Assembly (NCBI GenBank): GCA_017504795.1
Contig: JAFVQM010000006.1
Coordinates: 1-39,670 of the forward strand
Direction of reading: 5' to 3'
Origin: Clostridia bacterium
Lineage (GTDB): Bacteria > Bacillota > Clostridia > Christensenellales > Borkfalkiaceae
DNA: 39,670 nt
Of this stretch, positions 1,769 through 24,959 are shown piece by piece. The notes beneath the pieces were generated by a model, which saw nothing but the letters and a program-made list of their open reading frames with translations, made no database searches and was not told where the DNA came from. Positions within the stretch are counted from its first letter, which is position 1; every line of letters starts with the position of its first letter. A program made the translations under genes and the position numbers.

Positions 1769-3337
1769 ATGCATTGGGCTCATAAATTAGCAGAAGAAGT
1801 TATTAAAAGAAACCCTAACAAAGAAGAATACGTTTGCGCGGCGGGAATAAGCCCGTCGGGTAGCGTTCATATCGGTAATTTCCGCGATATAGCAACTAGT
1901 TATTACGTTGTTAAAGCGCTTAGAAAAATGGGTAAAAAAGCAAGATTACTCTTTTCGTGGGACGAGTTTGATAGGCTTAGAAAAGTTCCTTCAAACGTAG
2001 CGCCGATATGTCTTGACTTTGATAAGTATTTGGGTATGCCTTACGCTCTTATTCCAGACCCTTACAAAACTCACGGCAGTTACGCTGAGCACAACGAAAA
2101 GGAGTTTGAAGAGTCGCTTGAAGAGTTAGGAATTGACGTAGACTTCCGCTATCAAGCAAAAAAATATATGAATGGCGACTACGTTGACGGGATTATTAAC
2201 GCCATTAAAAAGCGCAAAGAAATTTACGACGTTTTAATGGAATATAAAACCCAAGATAGCGACGAAGGCGAGCGTGAAAATTACTATCCGCTTAACGTAT
2301 ACTGTCAAGACTGTGGCAAAGACACCACTAAGGTTATCTCAGGAAGTGACGACGGGGAAGAAATCACTTACACTTGTAAGTGCGGTGCTACTCATACCGT
2401 TAAGGTTAGAGAGTATCATATGATTAAACTCGTTTGGAAGGTTGACTGGCCTATGCGTTGGGGTTACGAAGGCGTTGACTTTGAGCCGGGCGGAATTGAC
2501 CACGCTGCCGCAAGCGGTAGTTTCGTTGTTGCAAGCGATATCGCTAGAAAAGTTTTAGGGGTTGAGCCTCCGCTTTTCCAAGGCTACGGCTGGCTTTCTA
2601 TTGCAGGGCTTGGCGATATGCACTCGTCAACGGGTAACAACATCACTCCTGCAACCGTAATGAAGGTTTACGAACCTGACATGATTCGTTGGCTCTTTGC
2701 TAAATACGAACCCAAAGCAGGTTTCAGTTTCAATTTTGACGATACTATTATCCGCCATTATTCAGAGTTCGACAAGGGCTTAGAAGCCTATAAAAACGGC
2801 GAGGCGGACGAGTATAACGAGTGGGTTTACGACCTTGCTATGCTTGACGGGAATAAAACCCGTTCAAAAGTACCTTTCGGCGTGCTTTCATCAGTTGCAA
2901 CGATAGTTGACTTTAACCCCGTTGCCGTTAAAGAAATTTTAGCAAAAGTAGGCGTTGAGTTTAGCGATAACGACAAAGTTAGACTTGAAAGAGTTAAAAA
3001 CTGGATTACCGTTCATCAACCGGGCAAACTCTACAAGTTATTAAAGGCTAAAAACCAAGAGTTTTACGACACGATTTCCGATGAAGAAAAGGTAGCCGTT
3101 AAAAAACTTTACGAATACGTAACGACTAGCGAAGTTATCGGCGAAAAGGACGTTCAGCAGTACCTTTACTCGCTTATTAACGACGTAAATCTTACTAAAA
3201 AAGAAAATATGCAACGCCAACAAAGATTCTTCAAAGTGTTCTATAACCTTTTATTCGGTACCGATATGGGCCCGAGATTATATCTCTTCCTTGCGGCAAT
3301 CGATAAAAAAGAATACGCAGAACTCTTAAACTTCTAA
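1769..3337 (+). CDS. lysS: Lysyl-tRNA synthetase, class I
   Basis: This enzyme charges tRNA-Lys with lysine. It is the class I (Rossmann-fold) form typical of Archaea and some bacteria, not the class II form of E. coli. The HIGH-type signature HIGN is at residues 34-37 within GISPSGSVHIGNF. A Cys-rich zinc-like segment (YCQDCGK, then CKCG) lies near residues 179-205, and the family sequence WKVDWPMRW follows. The KMSKS position reads DMHSST at 283-288, so the usual first lysine is Asp and the fifth position is Thr. Length (522 residues) is normal. AAGGAG at 1755-1760 fixes the start, 8 bases upstream. A strong hairpin terminator follows directly. Confidence 0.93.
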   Translation: MHWAHKLAEEVIKRNPNKEEYVCAAGISPSGSVHIGNFRDIATSYYVVKALRKMGKKARLLFSWDEFDRLRKVPSNVAPICLDFDKYLGMPYALIPDPYKTHGSYAEHNEKEFEESLEELGIDVDFRYQAKKYMNGDYVDGIINAIKKRKEIYDVLMEYKTQDSDEGERENYYPLNVYCQDCGKDTTKVISGSDDGEEITYTCKCGATHTVKVREYHMIKLVWKVDWPMRWGYEGVDFEPGGIDHAAASGSFVVASDIARKVLGVEPPLFQGYGWLSIAGLGDMHSSTGNNITPATVMKVYEPDMIRWLFAKYEPKAGFSFNFDDTIIRHYSEFDKGLEAYKNGEADEYNEWVYDLAMLDGNKTRSKVPFGVLSSVATIVDFNPVAVKEILAKVGVEFSDNDKVRLERVKNWITVHQPGKLYKLLKAKNQEFYDTISDEEKVAVKKLYEYVTTSEVIGEKDVQQYLYSLINDVNLTKKENMQRQQRFFKVFYNLLFGTDMGPRLYLFLAAIDKKEYAELLNF

Positions 3338-3344
3338 AAAAATA

Positions 3345-3373
3345 AAATCTCCGATAAAATCGGAGATTTTTTT
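3345..3373. terminator. Bidirectional intrinsic terminator
   Basis: AAATCTCCGAT (3345-3355) and its exact reverse complement (3359-3369) form an 11-bp stem with an AAA loop. A T-run follows on the plus strand and an A-rich run precedes it. It ends lysS on the plus strand and can also end the convergent glycosyltransferase gene on the minus strand. Confidence 0.9.
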
Positions 3374-3374
3374 A

Positions 3375-4457
3375 TTATTTTTTGTTGTTGTGGGGGAATA
3401 CCCAAACCGTTTGAACTCTAAAACTTATTATTGCCAAAACAACGTCAACTATAAGTTTGAAAAATACGGGTGATATATTAAATACGTTTAGATAAGTCGT
3501 AATCAAAGTGGTGGCGGTTAAAAGGAAAATCCAAAGCGTGTAATACCTAACTATCGTAGATTTTCCCTTGCCGTTAAATACGAACTTGCAGTTGATAAAG
3601 TAATTTACTATCGAAGATAGTATTCTCGACGTTACGGCAGACAGTAGAAGTTTGGTTTCTTCTACGAGCCCTGCGTAAGCAAGGTAAATACAAAGCGAAT
3701 ATATGCCGAATTCCACCGCGGTTGAAAGTATTACGCCGATAAGGTAAAAGTTAACGTTTTTAAGGAGAACCCCCCAAACTTTAACGCTATCGGATATAGT
3801 CTTGAAGTGGGAACGCCTTTCAACGTCGTCAGGCTTTTCTTCGTAAATAGTATCGATAGGAATTTCCTTAAACTCAACATTTTGCTTAAATAAAACGATA
3901 AGCATATTCATTTCGTACTCAAAGCGGTTTCCTGAAATTGCAAGCATTTTGTCAATCATATCGTAAGAAAACGCCCTAAGCCCCGTTTGGGTATCGGTTA
4001 CTTTTAACCCGTATAATAGGCTAAACATACGCCTAGTGTTAACGTTGCCAAATCGCGAGCGTTTAGGAACGTTAGGGGCGGAAAAGTCACGCGCGCCTAA
4101 AATTAAACAGTTTCTATTCTCGCTTGAAGATTTATAAAGGCGCAAAACGTCCTTTACCGAGTGTTGCCCGTCACAATCAGCAGTTACTATAACCGTGTTT
4201 TCGTTATAATTTTCCTTTATATAAGAAAAAGCGTGCTTTAAGGCGTAGCCTTTGCCGTGATTTTCACCGTATTCTAATACGGTAACACCGCTTATTTCCT
4301 TTGCTTTATCGAAAACTTCTTGATATTTAGTTGAAGACCCGTCATTTACCACAATTACGTTATCCGCACCGCCACTTATTAACTCTTTAAGATAGTCAAT
4401 AAACTTCATAGGCGGTTCGTATGCAGGTATTACGACGGCAATTTTTTCATTTTCCAT
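3375..4457 (-). CDS. GT2 glycosyltransferase fused to a GtrA membrane domain
   Basis: Residues 1 to about 225 form a family 2 glycosyltransferase of the dolichol-phosphate-mannose-synthase type: VVIPAYEP at the start, VNDGS, the metal-binding ADCDGQH and the TDTQTGLR motif. Residues about 235-355 hold four hydrophobic segments matching the GtrA family. The likely role is transfer of a sugar from a nucleotide donor to a polyprenyl phosphate and delivery of the lipid-linked sugar across the membrane for wall or teichoic-acid glycosylation. The sugar is unknown. GGTGA precedes the ATG. The lipid kinase gene lies upstream on the same strand, but this gene has a plausible promoter of its own. Confidence 0.88.
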   Translation of the reverse strand: MENEKIAVVIPAYEPPMKFIDYLKELISGGADNVIVVNDGSSTKYQEVFDKAKEISGVTVLEYGENHGKGYALKHAFSYIKENYNENTVIVTADCDGQHSVKDVLRLYKSSSENRNCLILGARDFSAPNVPKRSRFGNVNTRRMFSLLYGLKVTDTQTGLRAFSYDMIDKMLAISGNRFEYEMNMLIVLFKQNVEFKEIPIDTIYEEKPDDVERRSHFKTISDSVKVWGVLLKNVNFYLIGVILSTAVEFGIYSLCIYLAYAGLVEETKLLLSAVTSRILSSIVNYFINCKFVFNGKGKSTIVRYYTLWIFLLTATTLITTYLNVFNISPVFFKLIVDVVLAIISFRVQTVWVFPHNNKK

Positions 4458-5666: not shown

Positions 5667-5681
5667 CTTTTAGGAGATTTG

Positions 5682-6044
5682 ATGAGTAAGCAAAGAGAGA
5701 TTGTGTTAAACGCAGTTTTATCAAGTTGTGATCATCCTACGGCTGAAACGGTGCTACTTCGTAGCAAGGCGGAAATGCCTTCTATAAATTTAGCAACGGT
5801 ATATCGCAACCTTAACGCGCTTGTAAAAGACGGGCTTATTAAAAAAGTGGTGGCGGACGGGGGCGATAGGTTTGATAAAACGCTAAAAAATCACGCACAT
5901 TTTCAATGTAGGGTATGCGGTTCGGTGTCGGACGCTATTGGGTTTGACTTCAAGGCGTTAGAAGGCTTAACTGCTAACGGGCTAGTTGAGAGTGTTGACG
6001 TGTCTATTAAGGGCGTTTGCCCAAACTGTACGGTTACTAATTAA
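5682..6044 (+). CDS. perR: PerR/Fur-family metal-dependent regulator
   Basis: This is a Fur-superfamily repressor. The DNA-binding helix SINLATVYRNLNAL is at residues 34-47. Metal-site residues H71 and H73 lie in NHAHF, with RFD (Asp65) just ahead. The structural zinc site is C76-C79 with C113-C116. The Asp in RFD, the pairing with rubrerythrin and the adjacent operator favour a PerR-like peroxide sensor, but a Fur or Zur role is not excluded. ATG at 5682 is chosen because AGGAG at 5672-5676 sits 5 bases before it. A TTG one codon upstream is too close to that site. Length is 120 residues, slightly short for the family. Confidence 0.82.
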   Translation: MSKQREIVLNAVLSSCDHPTAETVLLRSKAEMPSINLATVYRNLNALVKDGLIKKVVADGGDRFDKTLKNHAHFQCRVCGSVSDAIGFDFKALEGLTANGLVESVDVSIKGVCPNCTVTN

Positions 6045-6087
6045 GTAAAACTTAAAAAAATATAAAAAATTTTCAAGGAGAAACATT

Positions 6088-6621
6088 ATGGAACTTAAAG
6101 GTACTAAAACCGAAATGAATTTAAGAGAGGCTTTTGCTGGTGAAAGCCAAGCGCGTAACAAATACACTTATTTTGCAAGTGTTGCAAAGAAAGAAGGTTA
6201 CGAACAAATTGCTGAAATTTTCTTAAAAACAGCAGACAATGAAAAAGAACACGCTAAACTTTGGTTTAAGCATCTTGGTGAACTTGGTAGCACTGCTGAA
6301 AACTTAATTTCCGCTGCTGCTGGTGAACACGGTGAGTGGACTGAAATGTATAAAAGAATGGCAGAAGATGCTGATGCGGAAGGTTTCAAGGCACTTGCAG
6401 CACAATTTAGAATGGTTGCTAAAATTGAAAAGTCGCACGAAGATAGATATCTTGCACTTCTTGCTAACGTAAAGGACGAAAAGGTTTTTGCAAAAGAAGA
6501 AGAAACTGTTTGGGAATGCAGAAACTGTGGTCACATACATACCGGTAGCAAGGCGTTAGAAGTTTGCCCCGTATGCGCTCATCCTAAGGCATACTTTGAA
6601 GTTAGAAAGGAAAACTACTAA
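6088..6621 (+). CDS. rbr: Rubrerythrin (peroxide reductase)
   Basis: Rubrerythrin reduces hydrogen peroxide to water in the cytoplasm of anaerobes with electrons from a rubredoxin or NADH-dependent reductase. The N-terminal ferritin-like di-iron domain shows Glu19 (AGESQA), the ExxH pair E52-H55, and a second ExxH in [10 protein letters not shown]. The C-terminal rubredoxin domain has its four iron ligands at C144, C147, C160 and C163. Length (177 residues) is typical, with no truncation. AAGGAG lies just upstream. It follows the perR-like gene by 43 bases and precedes a strong terminator, so the two form one unit probably induced when peroxide inactivates the repressor. Confidence 0.96.
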
Positions 6622-7580: not shown

Positions 7581-8019
7581 TAAAATTTCAAATCTTAGTA
7601 GATACTCTTACGTTCCGGGTGTTTCTAAGGTAATAGATTATTTAAGTTCGACTGACGTTTTGTCGCTTGAAGTAGGCAAATACGATTTAGGGGACGAGTG
7701 TTTCGTTAGAGTTTTCGACTACGTAACCCACGAAGAACCCGAAGAAGTTTTGCTTGAAGCGCATAGAAATTATCTCGATCTTCAATTAGTTATAAAGGGA
7801 AAAGAAACTTTTTTAACTCAGGCGATAGAACTCGGTGAAGAAAAAGTTCCTTACAATAAGGATAAAGACGTAGAGTTTTTCACTGCGGGTTATCACAACG
7901 TTATAGGACTTGAAACGGGCGATTTTGCAATCGTTTTTCCGAACGACCTTCACGTAGGCAATATAAATGCCGACGGGGAAGAACAAGTTAAAAAACTCGT
8001 TTTCAAACTCAAAATCTAA
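7570..8019 (+). CDS. YhcH/YjgK/YiaL family protein
   Basis: The 149-residue protein matches the YhcH/YjgK/YiaL (DUF386) family, a small cupin-like fold related to the EbgC beta subunit. Visible family features are the N-terminal MIIDKISNLSRY, the central EAHRNYLDLQLVIKG and the C-terminal FPNDLHVGN, which supplies metal-type His and Asp residues. Members are linked to sugar and sialic-acid catabolism, possibly as anomerases or isomerases, but no sugar genes are adjacent here. The ATG lies inside the last codons of the ATP-grasp gene with AAAGGAG just upstream, so the two are translationally coupled. Confidence 0.85.
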   Translation: MIIDKISNLSRYSYVPGVSKVIDYLSSTDVLSLEVGKYDLGDECFVRVFDYVTHEEPEEVLLEAHRNYLDLQLVIKGKETFLTQAIELGEEKVPYNKDKDVEFFTAGYHNVIGLETGDFAIVFPNDLHVGNINADGEEQVKKLVFKLKI

Positions 8020-8020
8020 A

Positions 8021-8812
8021 ATGAAAGAGCAAAAGGTTAAAAACAGCGGTAAAATATCACGTAAAAAGCAGATAATAAACTTAATAATCGTGTGTTTAGC
8101 GCTAGTTATATCCTACGCGCTCAACGTATATACGAGTTCGTTTCAGCAGGCAAACGTAAAACTGTTATCGCTTTTATTTTATTCGGCACTCGGTTTTATA
8201 GCGTTTTATATACTGTATTACGTCGTTTATTTCATAACGCTAATACGCTATAACAAAAGGCGTAAAAAAATTGCAAACTCTATTATCTCGTGTGACGATA
8301 ACGTTGCTGAAATTTTTGCAGGCAACAAACACCGCTTTAACTATGATAAAAAGATACCGCTTAACGATAATTTAACCGCTTATTTAGACGGGGTTTTGAA
8401 GGTGGTTAAAGAAATTGCAGACGGGTATAGTTTAGGAAAAAACGAGTATTATTATCTAAACTTTACCGTGTACGACGCTATAAAAATAGTTGGTGACGCA
8501 ATTGACGGCATAGATATTAAAATATCCCCGATATTTAGATTTTTAAGGGCGGAAGATAGACCGCTTAAAGTGGTTGAAAAACTTTTAATTTCCGCGCTTG
8601 AAGAAGAAAAAAAGGAAGAAAAACCAAAATCTGCTTTTGCAAAAACCTTGATTGACACCGCCAAAAAAGCAGGGGTATCGCTTATAAAAACTCCGCTTGA
8701 AAACGCGCTTAACGACCTAACCGTATTTGTAGGTTACGAGGCGTTTAAGGTTTACGGCAGTAGTTCTAAAAAGGGGTATTTGCCACCTTCTAAGGAGGTG
8801 CAAAATGGCTGA
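8021..8812 (+). CDS. Unknown two-helix membrane protein
   Basis: I do not recognise this family. From ATG 8021 (263 residues) a basic N-terminus leads into two hydrophobic helices at about residues 17-37 and 46-75. A basic stretch (RYNKRRKK) follows, then a soluble domain of about 185 residues with a YYYLNFT motif near 147-153, a Glu/Lys-rich linker near 190-200 and a C-terminal helix ending VGYEAFKVYG. The basic loop suggests a cytoplasmic soluble domain. An alternative start at 7967 is rejected because it would overlap the previous gene by 53 bases, whereas 8021 is 2 bases after its stop. No clear ribosome-binding site precedes 8021. It overlaps the next gene by 8 bases. Confidence 0.65.
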   Translation: MKEQKVKNSGKISRKKQIINLIIVCLALVISYALNVYTSSFQQANVKLLSLLFYSALGFIAFYILYYVVYFITLIRYNKRRKKIANSIISCDDNVAEIFAGNKHRFNYDKKIPLNDNLTAYLDGVLKVVKEIADGYSLGKNEYYYLNFTVYDAIKIVGDAIDGIDIKISPIFRFLRAEDRPLKVVEKLLISALEEEKKEEKPKSAFAKTLIDTAKKAGVSLIKTPLENALNDLTVFVGYEAFKVYGSSSKKGYLPPSKEVQNG

Positions 8813-9578
8813 CTTTTTGTCTTCGTTATCAAGCGTAATTAACGTTTTGTTTATCGTTTCGGCAATTGCGTTCGGCGTGTCGCTTGCGGTAAAAACTTTG
8901 CTTATACAAACGGTTAAAAAAATCAATAAAGAAAGTTCTAAAAACTTTGATAAAATAAGCGATTTTGAAATAAAGTCTAATTGCGAAAACGCGATAAACG
9001 ACCTTGTTGTTAGATACGTAAATCACACGCAACAAGTTCAAAAAATTACTAGCGATATTAAGAAGAATAAAGTTAGAAAATTTTTGAAACTCAAAGAGTA
9101 TAAAGTAGACGTTCAAACCGATAACTTAAAAGATATTTTTCTATCATTGTTTAGAGACGTTTCGTATAAAGTAGACGGCAAAGGCGGATATCTCAACTTT
9201 TCTAAAAACGAACTTTTTTCTATGATACGCGAACTTTTAGATAGGGTTGAAAAGATACTTGACTCGTCTAAGGTTATATGGCTTAAAACGATTAAGATTT
9301 CATCTTTCGTAGAAGCCGTTAAAATATACGGTAGCATTGAAAAGTTTACGTCAAAGCCAAGTGTAATACTATTTACGTACGCAGTAAATTTTTGCTTAGC
9401 CGTTTCGAAATTTTTCTCGCCGATAGGCGCAACTAAAAAACTTGCGAGCACGGTTCTTAACGATAGTTTCTCGTCAATACTTGCAACGACCGTTATCTCG
9501 GTAGTTGGCAAAGAGTGGGCAGTGCTGTGTTACGAAAAAGAACTATCTAGACAAGTTGAAACCAAAAAAGTAGCGTAA
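8805..9578 (+). CDS. Unknown membrane protein, possible paralogue of its neighbour
   Basis: Not recognised. The 257 residues begin with a hydrophobic helix (about 11-33), then a basic, charged soluble region, and further weakly hydrophobic stretches near 183-205 and 228-245. It shares with the preceding protein a GYLNFS motif (about residues 125-130), a following amphipathic helix and a C-terminal VGKEWAVLCY-like end, which suggests tandem duplication and divergence. AAGGAGG immediately precedes the ATG, which lies within the end of the upstream gene. Coupled translation suggests the two proteins form a complex. A strong new promoter follows, so this is the last gene of its unit. Confidence 0.65.
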   Translation: MADFLSSLSSVINVLFIVSAIAFGVSLAVKTLLIQTVKKINKESSKNFDKISDFEIKSNCENAINDLVVRYVNHTQQVQKITSDIKKNKVRKFLKLKEYKVDVQTDNLKDIFLSLFRDVSYKVDGKGGYLNFSKNELFSMIRELLDRVEKILDSSKVIWLKTIKISSFVEAVKIYGSIEKFTSKPSVILFTYAVNFCLAVSKFFSPIGATKKLASTVLNDSFSSILATTVISVVGKEWAVLCYEKELSRQVETKKVA

Positions 9579-9617: not shown

Positions 9618-9646
9618 TTTACAAAGTAAATAGTTTGTGTTATAAT
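9618..9646 (+). promoter_or_regulatory. Extended -10 promoter for the pfl operon
   Basis: TTTACA at 9618-9623, a 17-base spacer, and TATAAT at 9641-9646 preceded by TGT (extended -10). It lies in the 104-base gap before pflA and probably drives pflA, the thioredoxin-like gene, pflB and the glycyl-radical subunit together. Confidence 0.82.
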
Positions 9647-9682: not shown

Positions 9683-10411
9683 ATGGTAGGTAAAATTCAC
9701 TCTGTTTTTTCGGGCGGTACGGTTGACGGGCCTGGGATACGTTTCGTCGTATTTATGCAAGGTTGCCCGCTTAGATGTAAATACTGCCACAACCCCGATA
9801 GTTGGAAGGTTGGCGCGGGCGAAGAAAGGTCGGTATACGACCTAGTTTCTGAAATAGTTAGATATAAAAACTATTACGGTCAAAAAGGTGGCGTTACCGT
9901 ATCGGGTGGCGAACCGCTACTTCAAATAGATTTTGTAACGGAACTATTAAAGGAAGTTAAATCTCGCGGAATAAATACCGCGGTAGATACGTCTGGCTTT
10001 ACTTTTAATCTTAGCGATAGCGAATCGGTTAAAAAACACGAGATATTAGACGAGTTCGTTGACCTTTATTTATTAGATATAAAACATATCGACGATGAAT
10101 CGCACAAGTCTTTAACGGGTGTTCACAATCAAAACACCTTAAACTACGCCAAGTGGTTATCTAGTAGGGGTAAGCGTATTTGGATAAGGCACGTTTTAGT
10201 TCCAGGGCTTACCGACGATGACGAGAGTTTATCAAAACTTTCAGAATTTATAAAGACGATAAACGTTGAAAAGATAGAAGTTTTGCCGTATCATACGATG
10301 GGTGAAGTCAAATACCAAAATTTAGGAATAGATTATCCGCTTAAAGGTGTTGAGCCACCTAGCAAAGAAGTTATTGAAAAGGCAAAGCGCATTTTAGGAG
10401 TTATCAAGTGA
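9683..10411 (+). CDS. pflA: Pyruvate formate-lyase activating enzyme
   Basis: This radical SAM enzyme uses S-adenosylmethionine and a [4Fe-4S] cluster to abstract hydrogen from a glycine of pyruvate formate-lyase, creating the glycyl radical. The CxxxCxxC cluster motif is at C28, C32 and C35 (GCPLRCKYCHNPD). VTVSGGEPLLQ is the SAM-contact GGE motif, and GTVDGPGIR near the N-terminus is characteristic of PflA. Length (242 residues) is normal. GGGAGAG precedes the ATG. Its TGA overlaps the GTG start of the next gene. Here its target glycine is in a separate small protein (Gly52 of the 12842 gene) rather than in the large chain. Confidence 0.95.
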   Translation: MVGKIHSVFSGGTVDGPGIRFVVFMQGCPLRCKYCHNPDSWKVGAGEERSVYDLVSEIVRYKNYYGQKGGVTVSGGEPLLQIDFVTELLKEVKSRGINTAVDTSGFTFNLSDSESVKKHEILDEFVDLYLLDIKHIDDESHKSLTGVHNQNTLNYAKWLSSRGKRIWIRHVLVPGLTDDDESLSKLSEFIKTINVEKIEVLPYHTMGEVKYQNLGIDYPLKGVEPPSKEVIEKAKRILGVIK

Positions 10412-10731
10412 TAAACGACCAAAATTATAAAGAAAAATTAAAAGGTATGCAAGTTGTTGAAGTTAGTGGCGAATCTTGCGCTAACTGTTTAACGCTTATG
10501 CCTATGCTATTTGAAGTTGTAAAAGCAAGACCCAATTTGGAACTTATTCATATCGAGGCAAGCGAGTCGACTAAGGGTTTTTTAGAAGAATACTTAGTTG
10601 ACAGAGTGCCCACCGTTTTACTGTTAGACGACGGTAAGGTTTTTGCAAGGGCGGTAGGTTTTCAACCGCAAGAGATTTTCGAACTTTGGATAGACGCGAT
10701 GATTGAAGACTACTTAAAGACAAAAAACTAA
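10408..10731 (+). CDS. Thioredoxin-like protein within the pfl operon
   Basis: The 107-residue protein has a thioredoxin fold signature: a CANC active site (C24-C27) and the cis-proline loop as RVPTVLLL near residue 70, followed by a glycine-containing strand. It is probably a cytoplasmic thiol-disulfide oxidoreductase, although the CANC centre differs from the usual CGPC. It begins with GTG at 10408, overlapping the pflA stop by 4 bases, with TAGGAG at 10395-10400 seven bases upstream. Its place between activase and lyase is unusual. It might keep cluster or active-site cysteines reduced, but that is inference from position only. Confidence 0.82.
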   Translation: MINDQNYKEKLKGMQVVEVSGESCANCLTLMPMLFEVVKARPNLELIHIEASESTKGFLEEYLVDRVPTVLLLDDGKVFARAVGFQPQEIFELWIDAMIEDYLKTKN

Positions 10732-10780: not shown

Positions 10781-12814
10781 ATGGAACAGTATAAAGGCTG
10801 GGAGGGTTTTATACCCGGTAAATGGAGTAACGACGAAATCAACGTTAGAGACTTCATTCAAAAAAACTACACGCCGTATGAAGGAGACGATTCTTTCCTT
10901 GCTCCGGCGACTGACGCTACTAAGAAACTTTGGGAAGAAGTATTAGTTCTTTTCAAGAAAGAAAGAGATAACGGTGGCGTACTTGATGCGGACACTAAGA
11001 TTGTATCAACTTTAACTAGTCACGCACCCGGTTACATTGACAAAGATCTTGAAAAAATCGTAGGCGTTCAAACTGACGCTCCGCTTAAACGTTCACTTCA
11101 ACCGTTCGGTGGTATCAAAATGGCAAGCCAAGCGCTTGAAATGTACGGTTATAAAATTGACGAAGGCGTAAACGAAACGTTTACCAAATACAGAAAGACT
11201 CATAATGACGGTGTTTTTGACGCGTACACTCCCGAAATGAGAGCGGCTCGTTCTTCGCACATTTTAACAGGTCTTCCCGATACTTATGGTAGAGGTAGAA
11301 TTATAGGCGACTATCGTAGAGTAGCGCTTTACGGTATTGACTATCTTATCGTTAAAAAAGAAGAAGACAAAGCACTCATTTGTGGGGAAATGACTCCTGA
11401 TAAAATTAGAGATAGAGAAGAAATTGCCGAGCAAATTAAGGCGCTTAAAGGTCTTAAAGCGATGGCTCAATCTTACGGCTACGATATCAGTAAGCCTGCA
11501 ACTACCGCACAAGAAGCAATTCAAGCGGTATACTTTGGTTACTTAGGCGCAGTTAAAGATCAAAACGGCGCTGCAATGAGTATCGGTAGAACTTCAACCT
11601 TTATTGACATTTATATTGAAAGAGATATTAAAAAGGGTATTCTTACCGAAACCGAAGCGCAAGAACTTATGGATCACTTCGTAATGAAACTTCGTATGGT
11701 AAGATTTATGAGAATTCAATCTTACAACGAACTTTTCTCGGGCGATCCTACTTGGGTTACCGAAGCAATCGGCGGTATGGGTGTTGACGGTAGGTCGCTT
11801 GTAACCAAGAACTCTTTCCGTGTTCTTCACACTCTCGTAAACTTAGGTCCTGCACCTGAACCCAACCTTACCGTTTTATGGTCTAAAAATCTTCCTGCAA
11901 ACTTCAAAAAGTTCTGCGCTAAGATTTCTATTCAAACTTCTTCAATTCAATACGAGTCTGACGATCTTATGCGTCCTGAAATGGGTGACGACTATTCTAT
12001 CGCATGTTGCGTATCTTGTATGAAAACTGGTAAAGATATGCAGTTCTTTGGCGCACGTGCTAACCTTGCTAAGTGCTTGCTTTATGCAATCAACGGCGGT
12101 AAGGACGAAATGATGAAGGATAAAGTTACCGGCAAACCTATGCAAGTTGGTCCTAAATATCAAGCAATTACGTCTGACGACGCGCTCGACTTTAACGAAG
12201 TTATGGAAAAGTACGACGATATGATGACTTGGCTTGCCGGCGTTTACGTTAACGCTCTTAACCTTATCCACTACATGCACGACAAATACGCTTACGAAGC
12301 AATTGAAATGGCTCTTCACGATACCAAAGTTAGAAGATTCTTCGCAACGGGTGTTGCAGGTCTTTCGTGCGTGGCTGACTCGCTTTCAGCAATTAAGTAC
12401 GCTAAGGTTTACCCGATTAGAAGTGAAGACGGTATCGTAACCGATTTCAGAATTGAAGGCGACTTCCCCAAATACGGCAATAACGACGATAGGGTTGACA
12501 GTTTAGCAGTTGATCTCGTTAAACGCTTTATGAACAAAATTAGAACTCACTTCACGTACAGAGAGTCAGTTCCCACTATGAGTATTTTAACTATTACTTC
12601 AAACGTAGTTTACGGTAAGAAGACGGGTAACACTCCTGACGGTAGAAGAGCAGGCGAACCCCTTGCACCGGGTGCAAACCCCATGCACGGTAGAGATTCG
12701 CACGGTGCACTTGCATCACTTGAATCAGTAGCAAAACTTCCATACGAATATTCGAGAGACGGTATTTCGAATACTTTCTCGATTACCCCTGCATCTCTCG
12801 GCAAGGAAGACTAA
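10781..12814 (+). CDS. pflB: Pyruvate formate-lyase catalytic chain, lacking the glycyl-radical domain
   Basis: Pyruvate formate-lyase converts pyruvate and CoA to acetyl-CoA and formate in anaerobic fermentation. The catalytic Cys-Cys pair is C409-C410 in IACCVSCM, followed by [12 protein letters not shown] as in E. coli PflB. The chain ends at residue 677 just after [16 protein letters not shown], where a normal enzyme (about 740-760 residues) continues into the glycyl-radical domain. That domain is encoded by the next gene, and together the two total 754 residues. The start is ATG 10781, with AAGGAG at 10768-10773. An in-frame ATG at 10745 lacks a site and adds residues the family does not have. 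A third cysteine (C413) follows the pair. Confidence 0.95.
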
Positions 12815-12828
12815 AATATAATATAAAT

Positions 12829-12834
12829 AGGAGG
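12829..12834 (+). promoter_or_regulatory. Strong ribosome-binding site between the two halves of PFL
   Basis: AGGAGG at 12829-12834, with 7 bases to ATG 12842, lies in a 27-base spacer that keeps the same reading frame but contains TAA at 12812-12814 and again at 12824-12826. It shows that the glycyl-radical domain is initiated independently. Confidence 0.9.
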
Positions 12835-12841
12835 ATATTTT

Positions 12842-13075
12842 ATGTCACAACAAGTAGAAAATTTAGTTAATATGTTAGACGCGTACTGCGCTGACGGTGG
12901 CCACCACTTGAACGTTAACGTTTTCAATAGAGAAACGCTTTTAGACGCTCAAAAACACCCTGAAAAATACCCTCAACTCACTATCAGAGTTTCGGGTTAT
13001 GCTGTAAACTTTATTAAACTTACCAAAGAACAGCAAGACGACGTTATTTCACGTACAATTCACGAATCGTTATAA
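12842..13075 (+). CDS. Stand-alone glycyl-radical domain of PFL (GrcA-like)
   Basis: The 77 residues match the C-terminal domain of PflB almost end to end: [33 protein letters not shown] with the radical glycine at position 52, and [18 protein letters not shown]. It corresponds to the last ~75 residues of E. coli PflB and to the autonomous cofactor YfiD/GrcA, but lacks the N-terminal extension of YfiD. The inferred role is to insert into the catalytic chain of the preceding gene after activation by PflA, giving a two-chain enzyme. It has its own AGGAGG and is followed by a terminator, so it is the last gene of the operon. It could be called grcA by function, but here it replaces the domain rather than serving as a spare. 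Confidence 0.93.
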
Positions 13076-13080
13076 TACGG

Positions 13081-13122
13081 TAAAAGGCGTTGGATATCAA
13101 CGCCTTTTATTCTTGTTTTTTT
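13081..13122 (+). terminator. Intrinsic terminator of the pfl operon
   Basis: TAAAAGGCGTTG (13081-13092) pairs with CAACGCCTTTTA (13098-13109) around a 5-base loop. TTCTTG and a T-run to 13122 follow. The next gene's ATG begins at 13123, directly on the T-run. Confidence 0.88.
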
Positions 13123-16775: not shown

Positions 16776-18644
16776 ATGAAAAACGATTTACCTTGCTATT
16801 TATTCCATCAAGGCACGAATTACAGCGCGTTCGATTTTTTGGGTGCGCATTTTGCCCTTTCTAAGGAAAATAAAAAAGGCGTTGTTTTTAGGGTTTGGGC
16901 TCCTAATGCAAAAAGCGTTTCGGTAGTAGGCGATTTTAATAACTGGGATAAAACCGCGTGTGTTATGAATAAGATAAGTGACGGGGTTTACGAAGGTTTT
17001 GTTGAAAACGTGCGCGAGTACGATTCGTATAAATATGCTATAACTACTAGTAGCGATAAAATTATTTTCAAGGCAGACCCTTATGCGTTTCACTCTGAAA
17101 CTCCGCCGAGCACCGCGTCAAAGGTGTATGAACTAGACGGGTTTGAGTGGAGTGATGACGAGTATTTTACAACTCTTAAAAATAAAAATCACTTATCGTC
17201 GCCTATGAACGTTTACGAAGTAAATTTAGCGTCTTGGAAAAGAAAAGACGGCGGGGGTTATTACACTTATTGCGATTTAGAAAAAGAACTCGTTCCCTAC
17301 GTTAAAGAAATGGGATACACTCACGTTGAGTTTATGCCCGTTTCGGAATATCCTTTCGACGGATCGTGGGGGTATCAAGTAACGGGGTATTATTCTATAA
17401 CTTCTAGGTTTGGTACGCCTAAACAATTTATGTCGCTAATAAACGCCTTCCACAGTGAAGGTATAGGCGTTTTAGTTGATTGGGTTCCAGCGCATTTTCC
17501 GAAAGACGAGCACGGTCTTTTCGAGTTTGACGGTAAGCCACTTTACGAATATCAAGGAAAGGACCGTCAAGAGAACGAAGTTTGGGGCACTAGGTATTTT
17601 GACGTTGGTAGAAACGAAGTTCAAAGTTTTTTAATATCAAACGCCAACTTTTTGTTTCAAAAATTCCACGTGGACGGGCTTAGGGTAGACGCGGTTGCCG
17701 CCATGCTTTATCTTGACTACGATAAAAAGCCGGGCGAGTGGGTGCCAAACGCCTACGGCGAGAATAAAAACTTAGAGGCAATAGCGTTCTTTCATAAACT
17801 CAATAAAGAAATTTTCGGTAGATATCCTTACGCTTTGATGATAGCCGAAGAATCTACTGCAAATATAAAGATAACGGGCCCTGTACACGAGGGTGGTTTA
17901 GGTTTTAACTTTAAGTGGAATATGGGTTGGATGAACGATACCTTATCGTATATGTCAACCGATCCGCTATTTAGAAAATACCACCACAATAAACTCACGT
18001 TTTCGCTAACGTATGCGTTTTCTGAAAATTATATACTACCTATTTCGCACGACGAAGTCGTTCACGGCAAAAAATCACTTCTTGACAGAATGCCAGGGCG
18101 TTACGAAGATAAGTTTGCGGGTAATCGTGCGTTTTTAGGCTATATGATGGCGCACCCCGGTAAAAAACTTACCTTTATGGGTGAGGAGTACGGGCAGTTC
18201 AAGGAGTGGGACTACAAAGAGGGGTTAGAGTTTTTCTTAACCGACTACTCAATGCACCAAAAACTGCAAACCTTTTATAAAGAACTTAACCATTTTTATA
18301 AAACTACGCCGTCACTATACCTATTAGATAACGGGTGGGACGGGTTTGAGTGGATAGACGCGGACTTGTCCGATAAAAACTTATACTCGTTTATTAGAAA
18401 GGACGGAAAGGGAAATAACTTAGTCGTCGTTATCAATTTAAGCGGTAGTGACGACGTTGAGTACTTTCTAAAACTTCCCGAAGGGAAATATAAAGTTTCG
18501 TTTAATTCCGACCTTGTAAAGTACGGCGGTAGCGGTAAGTTTAGAAATAAAGTATTCAAAAGTGTAAAGCGTAGGAACAAAGAGAGTGGCTTTACGGTAA
18601 AATTACCCAAACTCTCGTTTATATATCTTGAAAAAATATCATAG
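16776..18644 (+). CDS. glgB: 1,4-alpha-glucan branching enzyme
   Basis: This enzyme cuts alpha-1,4 glucan chains and rejoins them as alpha-1,6 branches in glycogen. An N-terminal CBM48 domain (about residues 25-125, with VVGDFNNWD) precedes the GH13 barrel. The nucleophile is D305 in [15 protein letters not shown], the acid is E358 in MIAEEST, and the third acid is in [14 protein letters not shown], all characteristic of branching enzymes. A C-terminal beta domain ends the protein. The 622-residue length fits the family without the extra N1 module. It is the first gene of the operon, 11 bases before glgC. Confidence 0.96.
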
Positions 18645-18655
18645 GGGGATATTTT

Positions 18656-19840
18656 ATGATTTACAAAAAGAAGTGTATGGCAATGTTACTTGCAGGCGGT
18701 CAAGGTAGTAGGCTTTACGCCTTAACTAGCAAAATCGCAAAGCCTGCCGTATCGTTTGGCGGTAAGTATAGAATTATTGACTTTCCGCTCTCAAACTGCG
18801 TAAACTCGGGCATTGATACGGTTGGCGTATTAACTCAATACCAACCGCTATTACTCAACGAGTATATCGGCAACGGTCAACCGTGGGATTTAGATAGAAA
18901 CTTCGGCGGTGTACATATACTTTCACCCTATCAAGCAAAAGAAGGTTCAGAGTGGTTCAAGGGCACTGCAAACGCGATATATCAAAACCTTTATTTTATA
19001 AAGAGATATAACCCTGAGCACGTTTTAATACTTTCGGGCGACCACATTTATAAAATGGACTATTCTAAAATGTTACAGCGCCACATAGAAACCAACGCTG
19101 ACTGTACTATCGCAGCGCTTAAAGTTCCTATGAGCGAAGCGTCGCGCTTTGGTATATTAAACGTTAACGAAAACGGCGAGATTTACGAGTTTGAAGAAAA
19201 GCCTAAAAAACCTAAGTCGGACTTGGCGTCGATGGGCATATATATCTTCAAGGCGGAAAAACTTTACAAATACCTTGAAGAAGACGAAAAGTTAGAAGGC
19301 AGTAGAAACGACTTTGGTGGGGACGTGTTGCCACGTATGTTATCGCTTGGCGAAAAGATGATGAGTTACGAGTTTTCAGGATACTGGAAAGACGTTGGTA
19401 CGATATCTTCTTTATACGACGCGAATATGGACCTTCTCGGCGACACGCCAAACTTCCAAGTGGACGAAAAGTCGTGGATAATTCGTTCTAGAAACCCGAT
19501 AGCGCCACCGCATTACGTAAGCGATAAGGCAAGGGTAGTAAATAGCGCGATAGTATCTGGTTGTGAAATTGCTGGAACGGTAGAAAACTCCGTGCTTTCT
19601 CACCACGTTGAAATCGAAGAAGGCGCGATTGTAAAAAACAGTATTTTATTTGCGGGTGTTAAAATTTGCAAAAACGCCGTCGTTGAAAACGCAATTATTG
19701 CAGAATACGCAGTCGTTGAAGAGGGTGCTACCGTCGGCGCAATAACTGACGATAAAAAAATCACCGTACTTGGCGGTGGTTACACGGTTAAAAAAGGCTC
19801 GAAAATAGAAGCGGGCGAAATCGTTGAAGGAACTTTATAA
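18656..19840 (+). CDS. glgC: Glucose-1-phosphate adenylyltransferase, catalytic subunit
   Basis: GlgC makes ADP-glucose from ATP and glucose-1-phosphate, the committed step of bacterial glycogen synthesis. The nucleotidyltransferase core shows [16 protein letters not shown] (the pyrophosphorylase loop), [32 protein letters not shown] and FEEKPKKP. The C-terminal third has hexapeptide-repeat character (left-handed beta-helix). Length (394 residues) is typical. An AGGGGGA ribosome-binding site overlaps the end of glgB. It is paired with glgD, as in Firmicutes where the two form a heterotetramer. Confidence 0.97.
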
Positions 19841-19851
19841 GGGGGTAGAAT

Positions 19852-20964
19852 ATGAACGCGTTAGGATTAGTATTTTCAAATATACACGACAATAACGTTC
19901 CTGAACTCACTCAGGAAAGAACTATGGGTTCAATTCCCTTTTTAGGTAGATATCGCCTTATCGACTTTGCGCTTTCAAACCTTGTAAACTCGGGCGTAGC
20001 AAAAGTGGGGCTTATAACTAAAAGTAACTACCAGTCGCTTATGGACCACGTTGGTTCGGGTAAGGACTGGGACTTGGCGCGCCGTCGCGGTGGTTTACAT
20101 ATACTTCCGCCTTTCGGTCTTAAAGACAACGTTTTATACAGCACTCGTTTAGAAGCGCTTAGGGGTGCAAAAAACTTCCTTGCTCGTTCTGACGAAGAGT
20201 ACGTTGTTATGACCGATTGCGACAACGTTTGCGTAATGAATTTTGATAAAATTTTAACCGAACACAAGGCAAAAAACGCGGATATTACGCTAGTTTACGT
20301 TAAAAAGGACGCGAACGACGTCAAAGACGTTTTGAGTAAAATGATAGTGTCTACCGCCGATAACGGCAGGGTTACTGATATATCTTTTGCTCCGAGAGTT
20401 CAAGGCGAAATAAACTTATACACCAACGTTTGCATACTTAAAAGAACGCTACTTCAAACCCTTATTGCCGACGCTTTCTCGCACGGCTACAATCATTTTG
20501 GGAAAGACGTTTTAGTTAGAAACGTAAATTCGCTTAGAATTTTCGCACACGAGCACAAAGGTTATTTTGTTGCGCTTAATTCGCTTCAAAGTTATTATAA
20601 AGAATCGCTTAAATTCCTTGATAAAAGCGTTCGTGACGAAATATTTAAGAAAGTTGATGTCTACACCAAGGTTAAAGATAGCGCGCCAACTCGTTACGGA
20701 GCAAGCGCAGTAGTTAAAAACTCGCTTATTGCCGACGGTTGCGTGATAGAAGGCACGGTAGAAAACTCTATAATCTTCCGTGGCGTTAAAATAGGTAGGG
20801 GCACGGTAGTTAAAAACTCTATCTTAATGCAAGGCACTATTACGGGCGAAAACGTTTCGCTAAACTCAATAGTGGCGGATAAAAACGTAGTTATCAAAGA
20901 TAGGCGCGTATTATCGGCTTGCGAATCGCTACCGTTTTACATTAGTAAAAACATTATAGTTTAG
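19852..20964 (+). CDS. glgD: ADP-glucose pyrophosphorylase regulatory subunit
   Basis: GlgD is the non-catalytic paralogue of GlgC found in Firmicutes, where it modulates the activity of the GlgC/GlgD complex. The fold is conserved (RYRLIDFALSNLVNSGV, VMTDCDNV), but the GGxGxRL pyrophosphorylase loop is missing: the N-terminus reads LGLVFSNIHDNN instead. The 370 residues end in hexapeptide repeats (VIEGTVENSIIFRGVKIGRG). AGGGGG precedes the ATG, 11 bases after glgC. It ends in TAG. An 86-base gap with a hairpin separates it from glgA. Confidence 0.95.
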   Translation: MNALGLVFSNIHDNNVPELTQERTMGSIPFLGRYRLIDFALSNLVNSGVAKVGLITKSNYQSLMDHVGSGKDWDLARRRGGLHILPPFGLKDNVLYSTRLEALRGAKNFLARSDEEYVVMTDCDNVCVMNFDKILTEHKAKNADITLVYVKKDANDVKDVLSKMIVSTADNGRVTDISFAPRVQGEINLYTNVCILKRTLLQTLIADAFSHGYNHFGKDVLVRNVNSLRIFAHEHKGYFVALNSLQSYYKESLKFLDKSVRDEIFKKVDVYTKVKDSAPTRYGASAVVKNSLIADGCVIEGTVENSIIFRGVKIGRGTVVKNSILMQGTITGENVSLNSIVADKNVVIKDRRVLSACESLPFYISKNIIV

Positions 20965-21001
20965 TCCTTGATTAGGGCTTTAACAAATATTAAAAAGATT
21001 A

Positions 21002-21037
21002 GCAAGTCAAATAAAGGTTATGATTATTTTTACTTGC
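21002..21037 (+). repeat. Imperfect hairpin in the glgD-glgA gap
   Basis: GCAAGT-C-AAATAA (21002-21014) can pair with TTATTT-TT-ACTTGC (21024-21037) around a 9-base loop, leaving an internal bulge. No T-run follows, so it is not a standard terminator. It ends about 2 bases before the AAGGAG of glgA and might affect mRNA stability or initiation. Confidence 0.5.
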
Positions 21038-21050
21038 CTAAGGAGTTAAA

Positions 21051-22517
21051 ATGAAAAAGTCTACGAGTAAAACTGTTAAAATTCAAAAGAAAAAGAGTGT
21101 TTTGTTCGTTGCTAGCGAAGCAAACCCCTTTGTTGGGACGGGCGGTCTTGCCGACGTTATAGGTTCACTTCCAAAAGCGCTTGCAAAAGGCAAGAAGTAC
21201 GACGTTAGGGTGGTAGTTCCACTATATAAAGACTTTGCTTTTTCCAAAGACGAACTTACGTTTTTAGGTAGTTTTAACGTTGAACTTTCTTGGAGAAATC
21301 AATACTGCGGTGTGTACGAATATAACTTAGAAGGTGTAAAATTCTACTTTTTAGATAACGAATATTATTTTCTTCGCGACGGTTTGTACGGCTTTTACGA
21401 CGACGGCGAGCGATTTGCGTTTTTCTCAAAAGCGTCGTTATCTCTTATGAGATTTTTAGATTTTTATCCGGACGTTTTGCACGCACACGACTGGCAGTCG
21501 GCGTTAGCGGTAATATATCTTAAAACCCTTTATCGCTACGACTACGGCTATGATAAAATTAAAACGGTATTTACTATTCACAATATCGAATATCAAGGAA
21601 AATACGGTAAAGACGTTTTAGGTGACGTTTTTGGGCTTAGTGACGAGTATTATTCTTCGCTCGAATACGACAACTCTGTAAACTTACTTAAAGGCGCTAT
21701 GGTTTATTCGGATATCGTTTCAACCGTTAGCCCAACGTACGCTAGCGAAATAAAGTACGACTATTTTTCTCACGGGCTATCCCCGATTGTGTCTTCCGTT
21801 TCGCATAAAACCGTTGGTATTTTGAACGGAATTGACCAAAAACTATATAATTCCGCGCTAGATAAACACCTATTTTCTAACTATGATGAAACCGATTTAA
21901 GCGGTAAAAAAGTATGTAAGAAAGAACTTCAAAAAATGTTAGGACTTCCCGAAAAAGAAGACGTTCCCGTTATTGCAATGATAACTAGGTTGGTCGGGCA
22001 CAAAGGGGTAGACCTTCTAAAATGCGTTGTTGACGATTTGCTTTCTGAAAACGTTCAACTAGTAATACTTGGTAAAGGCGAAAAGCAGTACGAAGAATTT
22101 TTCAAAAAAGTTCAAGACGAATACTCGTCTAAATGCAGGGCGGTTATTGCATACAATAAGGACTTATCGTCAAAAATTTATTCGGGGGCGGATATTTTTT
22201 TGATGCCGTCTAAATCTGAACCGTGTGGTCTTTCGCAAATGATAGCGTGTAGATACGGCACGATTCCCGTAGTTAGAAAAACGGGCGGTCTAGCCGATAG
22301 TATTACACCCTATAACGTAGACAGAAAGGGCGGTAACGGGTTTAGATTTGATACCTACAACGCTCACGAAATGCTTTACGTTTTGAAAGATGCAATATAT
22401 ACCTACGGTGATAAAGAAGTTTGGAATAAACTAATATCTTGTGCTATGACGACTGATTTTTCTTGGAATAAATCGGCAAAAGAATACGAAAAACTATATA
22501 AAAATTTAATTGACTAA
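21051..22517 (+). CDS. glgA: Glycogen synthase (ADP-glucose dependent, GT5)
   Basis: GlgA transfers glucose from ADP-glucose to the growing alpha-1,4 glucan. The GT5 features are SEANPFVGTGGLADVIGSLP at the N-terminus, DVLHAHDWQSAL, TIHNIEYQGKYG, GILNGID, and the C-terminal catalytic PSKSEPCGLSQMIACRYGTIPVVRKTGGLADS. In the N-terminal ADP-glucose loop the usual lysine of KTGGL is replaced by Gly29 (VGTGGL). A basic extension of about 15 residues (MKKSTSKTVKIQKKK) precedes the normal start. AAGGAG supports ATG 21051. Length (488 residues) is normal. Confidence 0.95.
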   Translation: MKKSTSKTVKIQKKKSVLFVASEANPFVGTGGLADVIGSLPKALAKGKKYDVRVVVPLYKDFAFSKDELTFLGSFNVELSWRNQYCGVYEYNLEGVKFYFLDNEYYFLRDGLYGFYDDGERFAFFSKASLSLMRFLDFYPDVLHAHDWQSALAVIYLKTLYRYDYGYDKIKTVFTIHNIEYQGKYGKDVLGDVFGLSDEYYSSLEYDNSVNLLKGAMVYSDIVSTVSPTYASEIKYDYFSHGLSPIVSSVSHKTVGILNGIDQKLYNSALDKHLFSNYDETDLSGKKVCKKELQKMLGLPEKEDVPVIAMITRLVGHKGVDLLKCVVDDLLSENVQLVILGKGEKQYEEFFKKVQDEYSSKCRAVIAYNKDLSSKIYSGADIFLMPSKSEPCGLSQMIACRYGTIPVVRKTGGLADSITPYNVDRKGGNGFRFDTYNAHEMLYVLKDAIYTYGDKEVWNKLISCAMTTDFSWNKSAKEYEKLYKNLID

Positions 22518-22525
22518 GGAGATTT

Positions 22526-24958
22526 ATGATTACGGCTAAAATGACGGTAAAAGACGCTGAAACCTTACTTTCAGGCAAACTTTCAAGATATTTCGGCGTT
22601 ACTTTTCAAGAGGCAACCGAAGAGCAAATGTATAAGGCGGTTGCAATGTCTGTAAGGGATATTTTGCTTGAAAAGAGAAAGAACTACAACTACAAAGTTA
22701 AAGAGGCAAAAGGCAAAAGAGTATACTACCTTTGTATGGAATTTTTGCTTGGTAGAACGCTCAAAAACAGCGTTTATAACCTAGGACTTGAAGAAACTTT
22801 TGAAAGCATTTTATCTTCAAAGGGCTTTTCGCTTGAAAACCTATACGAACTCGAACCCGACGCTGGGCTTGGCAACGGCGGTTTAGGTAGGCTTGCCGCT
22901 TGTTTTATGGACGGGCTTGCCTCGTGTGACTATCCCGCAATGGGTTATTCAATCCGCTACGAATACGGGCTATTTAAGCAAAAAATAGTAGACGGTTGGC
23001 AAATGGAACTTCCCGACGTTTGGCTCCCCGGTGGCGAAGTTTGGCTTACCCAACGCCTTGATAAGACTTTTAAGGTAAAGTTTGACGGTAAAGTCGTTGA
23101 AACTTGGACGGAAAACGGTATGAAAGCGGAATTATACGATTGCGTTGAAGTTGAAGCCGTTCCTTACGATATGATGATATCGGGTAAAGATAGCGAAGCC
23201 GTTTCAGTTTTAAGGTTGTGGGCTGCACGCGCTGGGCATAAGTTCGATATGAACTCCTTTTCAGAAGGCAATTATATGCAAAGTATGAAAGAAAACAGCG
23301 AAGCGGAACTTATAAGTAAGGTTTTATATCCTTCGGATAACCATTTTGAAGGTAAGTCGTTAAGGCTTAAACAACAGTATTTCTTAGTTTCTGCTTCACT
23401 TCAAAACATACTTTCCGACCATATGTCTCGTTACGGCACGCTTGACAATCTTCACGAAAAGGCGGCAATTCACATAAACGATACTCACCCCGCGCTTTGC
23501 GTACCTGAACTTATGCGCCTTTTGATGGACGAATACGGTTACACTTGGGATACCGCTTGGTATATGGTAACTAACACCGTAGCGTACACCAACCATACCG
23601 TTATGCCCGAGGCACTTGAAAAGTGGAGTGAAGACCTTATCGAAAGAAGATTGCCTAGAATTCACTCGATAATTAAAGAAATTAACCAACGCTTTTGCGG
23701 TGAAATGTGGAATTTATTCCCAGGCGACTGGAACAAGATTGAAAGAATGTCCATTTTAAGTCACGGTCAAGTTAGAATGGCTAACTTATCGGTAGTGGCG
23801 TCGCACAAGGTAAACGGCGTTTCGGCGCTTCATAGTGACATTATAAAAAACAGTATTTTCAAAGATTTTTATTCGGTAACGCCTAATAAGTTCACTAACG
23901 TTACTAACGGTATCGCGCATAGAAGATGGCTTTGCCAGTCTAATAAAGAACTATCGTCGCTAATTACCGACCTTATAGGCGACGGATTTATTAAAGATGC
24001 AAGCGAACTTGAAAAGTTAAACGCCTTTACTAGCGATAAAGCGGTGCTTAAAAAACTTGGCGAAATTAAAAAGATTAAAAAAGAGCAGTTTGCAAACTAC
24101 GTTTCAAAGAAAAAGGGTATAATAATTAACCCCGAAACGCTTTTTGACGTTCATGCAAAGCGCCTTCATGAATATAAGCGCCAACTCCTTAATGCTATGA
24201 ACGTTATATCTATATATAACGACTTGCAAGAAAACCCCGACCTTCCTATCCTTCCTAAAACGTTTATCTTTGCGGCAAAGGCTGCGCCTGGATATTATTT
24301 TGCTAAGCAAATTATCAAACTTATTTGTTATTTGAGCGAAGATATCAACAAAAATCCTAACCCCAAAATTAGAGAGAAGTTAAAAGTTGTTTATCTTGAA
24401 GACTACAACGTAACTCTCGCTGAAAAACTTATGCCGTCTGCGGAAGTTTCCGAGCAAATTTCAACCGCGGGTAAAGAGGCGAGCGGAACGGGCAATATGA
24501 AGTTTATGATAAACGGTGCTTTAACGCTTGGCACGCTTGACGGTGCTAACGTTGAAATGAGCGAGGCGGTTGGCAGAGATAATATTTTCATTTTCGGTTT
24601 AGAAACCGAAGAAGTCAACGCGCTTTGGAAATCGGGCTATAATTCTAGCGAATTCTATAATAATAACTTAAAACTTCAAAAGGTAATAGAGTCACTTAAA
24701 CGCGGATATAACGGCGAAAGTTTTTCAATGATTGCAGATTATTTGTTAACTAGTAACCCCGTTGCTGACCCGTATATGTGCATGGCGGACTTTAACGACT
24801 ACCAAATGGCTCGCCATAACCTAGAAGAAGTTTACAAAGATAAAATGCTTTGGGCTAAAAAATCACTTATCAATATTGCAAGTGCAGGTAGATTTGCGGC
24901 GGATAGGGCGATTAGAGAATACGCTGACAATATTTGGAACTTAAAAGTAATAAAGTAA
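22526..24958 (+). CDS. glgP: Glycogen phosphorylase
   Basis: This PLP-dependent GT35 enzyme releases glucose-1-phosphate from glycogen chain ends with inorganic phosphate. Conserved features are LEPDAGLGNGGLGRLAACFMDG, NDTHPAL, HAKRLHEYKRQLLN and EASGTGNMKFMINGALTLGTLDGANVE, whose lysine (GNMKF) holds pyridoxal phosphate. Length (810 residues) is normal for bacterial GlgP. AAGGAG precedes the ATG, 8 bases after glgA. Having synthesis and breakdown in one operon implies control at the enzyme level, for example through GlgD. Confidence 0.97.
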   Translation: MITAKMTVKDAETLLSGKLSRYFGVTFQEATEEQMYKAVAMSVRDILLEKRKNYNYKVKEAKGKRVYYLCMEFLLGRTLKNSVYNLGLEETFESILSSKGFSLENLYELEPDAGLGNGGLGRLAACFMDGLASCDYPAMGYSIRYEYGLFKQKIVDGWQMELPDVWLPGGEVWLTQRLDKTFKVKFDGKVVETWTENGMKAELYDCVEVEAVPYDMMISGKDSEAVSVLRLWAARAGHKFDMNSFSEGNYMQSMKENSEAELISKVLYPSDNHFEGKSLRLKQQYFLVSASLQNILSDHMSRYGTLDNLHEKAAIHINDTHPALCVPELMRLLMDEYGYTWDTAWYMVTNTVAYTNHTVMPEALEKWSEDLIERRLPRIHSIIKEINQRFCGEMWNLFPGDWNKIERMSILSHGQVRMANLSVVASHKVNGVSALHSDIIKNSIFKDFYSVTPNKFTNVTNGIAHRRWLCQSNKELSSLITDLIGDGFIKDASELEKLNAFTSDKAVLKKLGEIKKIKKEQFANYVSKKKGIIINPETLFDVHAKRLHEYKRQLLNAMNVISIYNDLQENPDLPILPKTFIFAAKAAPGYYFAKQIIKLICYLSEDINKNPNPKIREKLKVVYLEDYNVTLAEKLMPSAEVSEQISTAGKEASGTGNMKFMINGALTLGTLDGANVEMSEAVGRDNIFIFGLETEEVNALWKSGYNSSEFYNNNLKLQKVIESLKRGYNGESFSMIADYLLTSNPVADPYMCMADFNDYQMARHNLEEVYKDKMLWAKKSLINIASAGRFAADRAIREYADNIWNLKVIK

Positions 24959-24959
24959 A

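Follow-up and report, generated by a model that had tools for sequence, protein, structure and literature searches.

The window, that is, the whole stretch of 39,670 nt from a Clostridia bacterium that was analysed (contig JAFVQM010000006.1), carries a gene cluster in which pyruvate formate-lyase (PFL) is encoded by two consecutive genes, a large chain with the catalytic cysteines and a small chain with the glycyl-radical loop (Table 1). The thioredoxin-fold gene of the cluster overlaps pflA by 4 bases and stands between pflA and pflB. The large chain is read from the ATG at 10781 to a TAA at 12812–12814 and ends in SLGKED; an alternative upstream ATG at 10745 would give a chain of 689 aa, but the start at 10781 is preferred because AAGGAG lies just before it.

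Table 1. Features of the PFL cluster and of related loci. Positions are those of the window unless a locus handle precedes them.
Feature	Coordinates	Strand	Basis or remark
Promoter-like site TTTACA-17-TATAAT, TG preceding the second hexamer	9618..9646	+	Upstream of pflA; consensus scan, 11/12 positions
pflA, radical-SAM PFL-activating enzyme, 242 aa	9683..10411	+	TIGR02493, 307.6 bits (cut-off 231.75)
Thioredoxin-fold protein, 107 aa, Cys-Ala-Asn-Cys	10408..10731	+	PF00085, 32.5 bits (cut-off 23.5)
PFL large chain, 677 aa, C409–C410	10781..12814	+	TIGR01255, 1078.2 bits (cut-off 994.2)
Spacer, 27 bases; in-frame TAA at 12824–12826; AGGAGG 7 bases before the next ATG	12815..12841	+	Sequence
Glycyl-radical small chain (GrcA3), 77 aa, Gly52	12842..13075	+	NF038360, 160.2–161.2 bits (cut-off 158)
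Terminator-like hairpin, 15 pairs, then T run	13079..13111	+	Consensus scan; directly 3′ of the small gene
GlgB	16776–18644		
Glycogen phosphorylase	22526–24958		
Debranching-type enzyme	24960–26741		
Unlinked small genes adjoining a Crp/FNR-family gene	L100 3112–4228; L127 3161–4222; L075, L082, L084 and L103 about 3200–4234		

Between positions 9500 and 13200, 9 promoter-like sites were found against 7.9 expected by shuffling, so that only place and score favour the site upstream of pflA. Terminator-like sites in the same interval number 2 against 3.2 expected, and the hairpin behind the small gene is favoured by the length of its stem and by its place. A consensus scan of the spacer revealed no terminator-like site between the two PFL genes. 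Given a promoter-like site before pflA, a hairpin after the small gene and no terminator-like site between these genes, joint transcription of the cluster from pflA to the small gene is likely, as far as predicted signals can indicate.

The PFL model TIGR01255 is covered by the large chain at positions 2–662 of 744 and by the small chain at positions 665–744; read across both chains the match scores 1174.5 bits, and the pair covers the model end to end. The large chain exceeds the cut-off of this model by itself and has the adjacent catalytic cysteines of a PFL, yet the glycyl-radical loop is absent from it and is encoded by the next gene; nor is there a tail past LGKED. In the small chain Gly52 lies within RVSGYAV, and the N-terminal ~15 residues are a PFL-derived segment. 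Canonical Escherichia coli PflB is one chain whereas the PFL of the window is two, with 66 % identity over the joined chains (494/744) and the same cysteine pair and glycine. In mature E. coli numbering, C409–C410 correspond to C418–C419 and Gly52 to G734, and the break maps after D678. The original prediction, a split PflB with a separate 77-residue glycyl-radical gene preceded by AGGAGG, is thus confirmed from the sequence and the TIGR01255 matches. It had also placed two in-frame TAA codons in the spacer; both exist, but one is the stop of the large chain and only the other lies inside the spacer.

Several neighbouring genes may be recorded. About 3 kb before pflA (window 5679–6618) lies a pair for defence against peroxide and oxygen: a gene for a Fur-family regulator (PF01475) and, behind it, one for rubrerythrin (PF02915). 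Two adjoining genes of 281 and 257 aa, without NCBIfam or Pfam match, lie just before the putative pflA promoter (window 7967–9578), and glycogen genes are found downstream of the PFL cluster (window 16776–28906).

Recurrence of the break in relatives

A free-standing small gene is present in 15 of 61 near genomes. Eight of these 15 carriers are members of this genus, which is represented by nine genomes; in the ninth, G002, all that was found is a fragment of the large chain where a contig ends. Across the wider class the small gene stands free in at least 23 of 391 genomes. The 15 near carriers and the 23 listed from the wider class, 2 of them shared, make up a set of 36 genomes, this genome included. 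A search of relatives for PflB chains cut at this point and followed by the small gene had been proposed as a check, and the upstream PflB ends at the common break in 36/36 loci of this set with a free-standing small gene.

A species-level scan, with one genome per species, used the small protein as query, and its list therefore says nothing on how common the split is. Among the matches listed are 80 loci, in which the small domain is free-standing in 78 and fused in 2. The 78 comprise 65 located downstream of a truncated PflB and 13 standing alone; a recount of the linked loci with another, simpler motif gave 59. Carriers include Ruminococcus albus KH2T6 and R. bicirculans 80/3, many Lachnospiraceae and Oscillospiraceae metagenome-assembled genomes (MAGs), and MAGs of Erysipelotrichaceae and Gastranaerophilales. 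Collinsella aerofaciens (Actinomycetota), found separately, has a pflB and grcA3 pair in its RefSeq annotation. In a search of the class of the Gastranaerophilales, GrcA3 was found in 3 of 77 genomes and is thus uncommon there.

In all seven within-genus comparisons, changes in the small gene are almost confined to silent sites, with dN of 0.014–0.084 and dS of 0.76–1.23 in six comparisons (saturated in the seventh). The small gene is under purifying selection.

The in-frame spacer of the window and the draft state of the assembly, in 39 contigs, would suit a mistake in sequencing or assembly, or a recent pseudogene. However, the common break recurs throughout the 36-genome set and in the 65 linked species-level loci, the small gene has its own ribosome-binding site and is under selection, the gaps of relatives fall in all three frames, and a PDB chain (below) is cut at the same place. 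This reading is refuted by the conservation, and its probability is close to nil; the original claim that a sequencing error does not explain the gap holds, since the same break recurs in relatives.

Alternatively, programmed read-through or frameshifting might yield a fused enzyme, and in the window, as in some relatives, the two genes are indeed read in one frame. Over 102 linked pairs, however, the gaps from stop to next start are spread over the three frames (30, 40 and 32), with only 30 pairs in frame; they range from −38 to 479 bases, and the genes overlap in 2 pairs. Gaps in all three frames, together with the two overlaps, imply that read-through is not the general mechanism. Some genomes also encode the small chain in an unlinked gene, and read-through is considered highly improbable. 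An Rfam search on ten sources gave no match at gathering score; the spacers of the loci from those sources thus hold no RNA element of a known family.

Matches were also seen under other labels. A phage-labelled record of 4.8 kb (MT838895.1; hits H1 and H49) encodes a large and a small chain ~250 bases apart, and is probably a bacterial contig. Among 1,539 phage-record matches, many phages encode a protein matching the small chain, and some of these are annotated as glycyl radical cofactor.

Large-chain forms and phylogeny

The 103 split large chains occur in two forms. As in the window, 26 end no more than six residues past the LG motif, and the other 77 continue into a tail. A (V/I)F-x-G-(D/E)-(L/I)-like motif is present in 70 of the 77 tailed chains; the tail has alternating hydrophobic residues and somewhat resembles the first strand of the glycyl domain (HLNVNV). 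The median gap from a tailed chain to the small gene is 243 bases.

Both forms have a counterpart in the PDB. 38LA, of 687 aa, and 38LB, of 739 aa, are both entered as ‘Formate acetyltransferase’ and are large chains that lack the glycyl domain; LGKED is the very end of 38LA, and 38LB continues into a tail. The large chain of the window matches 38LA with 1111 bits, to the last residue of 38LA, and by sequence is cut after LGK(E/D)D as in the two PDB chains. 38LA could be an engineered cut. In the tree it is placed at the base of the window's group, with 38LB beside Collinsella. No small-subunit-like chain was found in the PDB. The literature searched, subscription papers being outside its scope, yielded no description of a split PFL, of GrcA3 or of 38LA and 38LB. 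The depositors of both entries were probably aware of a two-chain system, and the split is partly known already, through the GrcA3 family at NCBI and the large chains in the PDB.

An IQ-TREE phylogeny of 89 chains places all 54 split chains in one clade of 63, with 9 fused chains inside it (support 99/96). Six changes between the split and fused states are needed on this tree, and its starred branches force at least four. A FastTree phylogeny of 145 chains agrees with it (88 split, 9 fused). When 38LA, 38LB and L189 are added, the fused chains L149, L150 and L168 leave the clade, which then holds 46 split chains, 6 fused chains and the 2 PDB chains (support 95). One origin of the split followed by several re-fusions is possible on these trees. 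In L123 (1901–4225), located inside the split clade, PFL and glycyl domain are joined via an extra linker of ~40 residues, and given this longer linker the locus looks like a re-fusion.

The PFL chains of L085, labelled a proteobacterium, and L109, labelled Muribaculaceae, group with those of Gastranaerophilales; these labels may be wrong.

Subunit or spare part

In anaerobic sugar metabolism PFL has a central place, and oxygen cleaves its polypeptide at the glycine that bears the radical. The known means of recovery, YfiD, is that of a facultative organism. The small gene might likewise be an autonomous spare part of the E. coli GrcA/YfiD type, with the real PFL intact elsewhere. The NCBI family NF038360, which the small chain matches end to end at more than 158 bits, bears the name ‘autonomous glycyl radical cofactor GrcA3’, which suggests a replacement part for a PFL that is itself intact; additionally, two split genomes, G311 and G414, also have an intact PFL. 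In the window and in the loci examined, however, the PflB is without a glycyl domain, and the PflB next to the small gene carries no glycine that could be lost. Nor does the small chain reach GrcA/YfiD (TIGR04365), for which it scores 97.6 bits against a cut-off of 170; the alignment starts only at position 62 of that model, and the N-terminal ~60 residues typical of YfiD are absent. For GrcA2 (NF008341) it scores 104.0 bits against a cut-off of 145.

An intact enzyme is also scarce among carriers. A check for a full-length PFL elsewhere in this genome found no other PFL-like gene in the assembly, which is 83.6 % complete. When TIGR01255 was run over the 36-genome set and G002, an intact canonical PFL was found in only 2 of the 36, G311 and G414, and none was found in 18 species-level genomes examined; many carriers are incomplete MAGs, on which these counts of absence depend. 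Two candidates were rejected: the sole full-span TIGR01255 match in the 18 genomes is another split pair, with a TAG in it, and a glycyl-radical match on contig C28 of this genome is a class III ribonucleotide reductase (NF006732, 804 bits, cut-off 657). Pyruvate:ferredoxin oxidoreductase is represented in this genome only by a 21-bit fragment; an E1_dh match (pyruvate dehydrogenase type) lies elsewhere in it, so that PFL is probably not the sole route to acetyl-CoA. With the split conserved and 34 of the 36 split genomes without an intact canonical PFL, a spare part is very unlikely, and the proposal of a permanent subunit in place of a spare domain is supported. The automatic label ‘autonomous cofactor’ probably misnames an essential subunit.

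The gene pair thus very probably represents a conserved, permanently two-chain pyruvate formate-lyase, its docking, radical installation and activity being predicted. The large chain provides the active-site cysteine pair and the 5′ nine-tenths of the enzyme, and the small chain the glycine on which the radical would form. This small chain is predicted to dock where the C-terminal loop of an ordinary PFL lies, perhaps helped by its ~15 PFL-derived residues. The PflA encoded in the cluster would then install the radical on Gly52, after which the pair should act as an ordinary PFL.

A close known system is E. coli YfiD/GrcA (PDB 6owr), in which a separate glycyl-radical chain likewise completes a PFL without its glycine, the enzyme there having been cleaved by oxygen. 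The enzyme that YfiD serves is otherwise intact, however, and the N-terminal half of YfiD is disordered, whereas the PFL described here is cut from birth. The small chain aligns with YfiD only from residue 16, its first ~15 residues being missing in YfiD. According to one study, E. coli PFL cut at residue 695 (tPFL, 1–695) is catalytically normal with YfiD once activated, but YfiD binding to tPFL is below detection by ITC and activation is 32-fold less (PMC8683613). In the natural pair the break comes 17 residues earlier than the engineered end of tPFL, and the weakness of tPFL indicates that a split does not work automatically.

Second small genes and a possible exchange of subunits

A second small gene was found in 14 of the 18 species-level genomes, which are not a fair sample, 13 having been chosen for an unlinked small gene. 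In 12 of these 13, the genome also encodes, at another site, a truncated PflB that has a small gene next to it; in the remaining one, G451, no large chain was found. The genomes of L076 and L079, added to the 12, make up the 14 with two small genes. None is listed for the 36-genome set in the TIGR01255 search, and none was found in this genome (assembly 83.6 % complete).

A Crp/FNR-family gene adjoins the stand-alone small gene in 6 of 13 loci, divergently in L075, L082, L084 and L103 and in the same direction in L100 and L127. Each of the six Crp/FNR genes encodes four or more cysteines, some of them closely clustered. Neighbours scanned in the other 7 loci are a symporter, a chemotaxis receptor, SpoIIIAA, an LCP transferase and DUF2161, or gave no match. 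The palindrome GTAACnnnnGTTAC is located 75–105 bases before the ATG in 3 of the 13 unlinked loci (L100, L127 and L135). It occurs in only 4 of 202 loci, the fourth (L119) having it just before a pflB, and in none of 200 shuffles of L127. Published work gives GTAACnnnnGTTAC as the consensus for HcpR2 of anaerobes (PMC1274295), which suggests an HcpR-like box, that is, a candidate site. The neighbour in L100 and L127, considered as a hybrid cluster protein, is a Cpn60-family protein upstream of the small gene, and consequently the box alone, not the neighbour, points to HcpR.

These unlinked second small genes of some lineages and the example of YfiD in E. coli make repair through subunit exchange plausible by analogy. 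A separate small protein could let the cell replace only the part damaged by oxygen. With less assurance than for the two-chain enzyme itself, it may be supposed that the small chain is the only part lost to oxygen (or nitric oxide) and that a fresh one takes its place; the second, unlinked small gene of some lineages, under stress-type control, may be the replacement supply.

The pair might instead be a working two-chain PFL whose split has to do not with repair but with stoichiometry, regulation or assembly. The break could hold PflB inactive until the small chain is made, the median gap of the tailed chains leaves room for separate control, and this genome has one small gene only. Second copies that are unlinked and located near redox-type regulators fit replacement better, and a split serving such other ends is a serious possibility that falls somewhat short of an even chance.

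A fuller version of the exchange proposal can be put forward only tentatively: a consumable radical subunit, with a large chain that is kept, a small chain that is swapped, a supply gene that several gut lineages would keep under iron-sulfur-type Crp/FNR or HcpR-like control, and a tail that acts as placeholder strand. The conserved tail might, as a guess, keep the docking site open or recognise the small chain, in the way that residues 696–733 of the cleaved E. coli enzyme serve YfiD. As the cut-from-birth enzyme is present in cultured gut bacteria (Ruminococcus albus, R. bicirculans and Collinsella aerofaciens), the exchange idea is directly testable.

Other palindromes were seen by eye: Fur/PerR-like ones in L092, L121 and L126, and another that the five Gastranaerophilales loci have in common.
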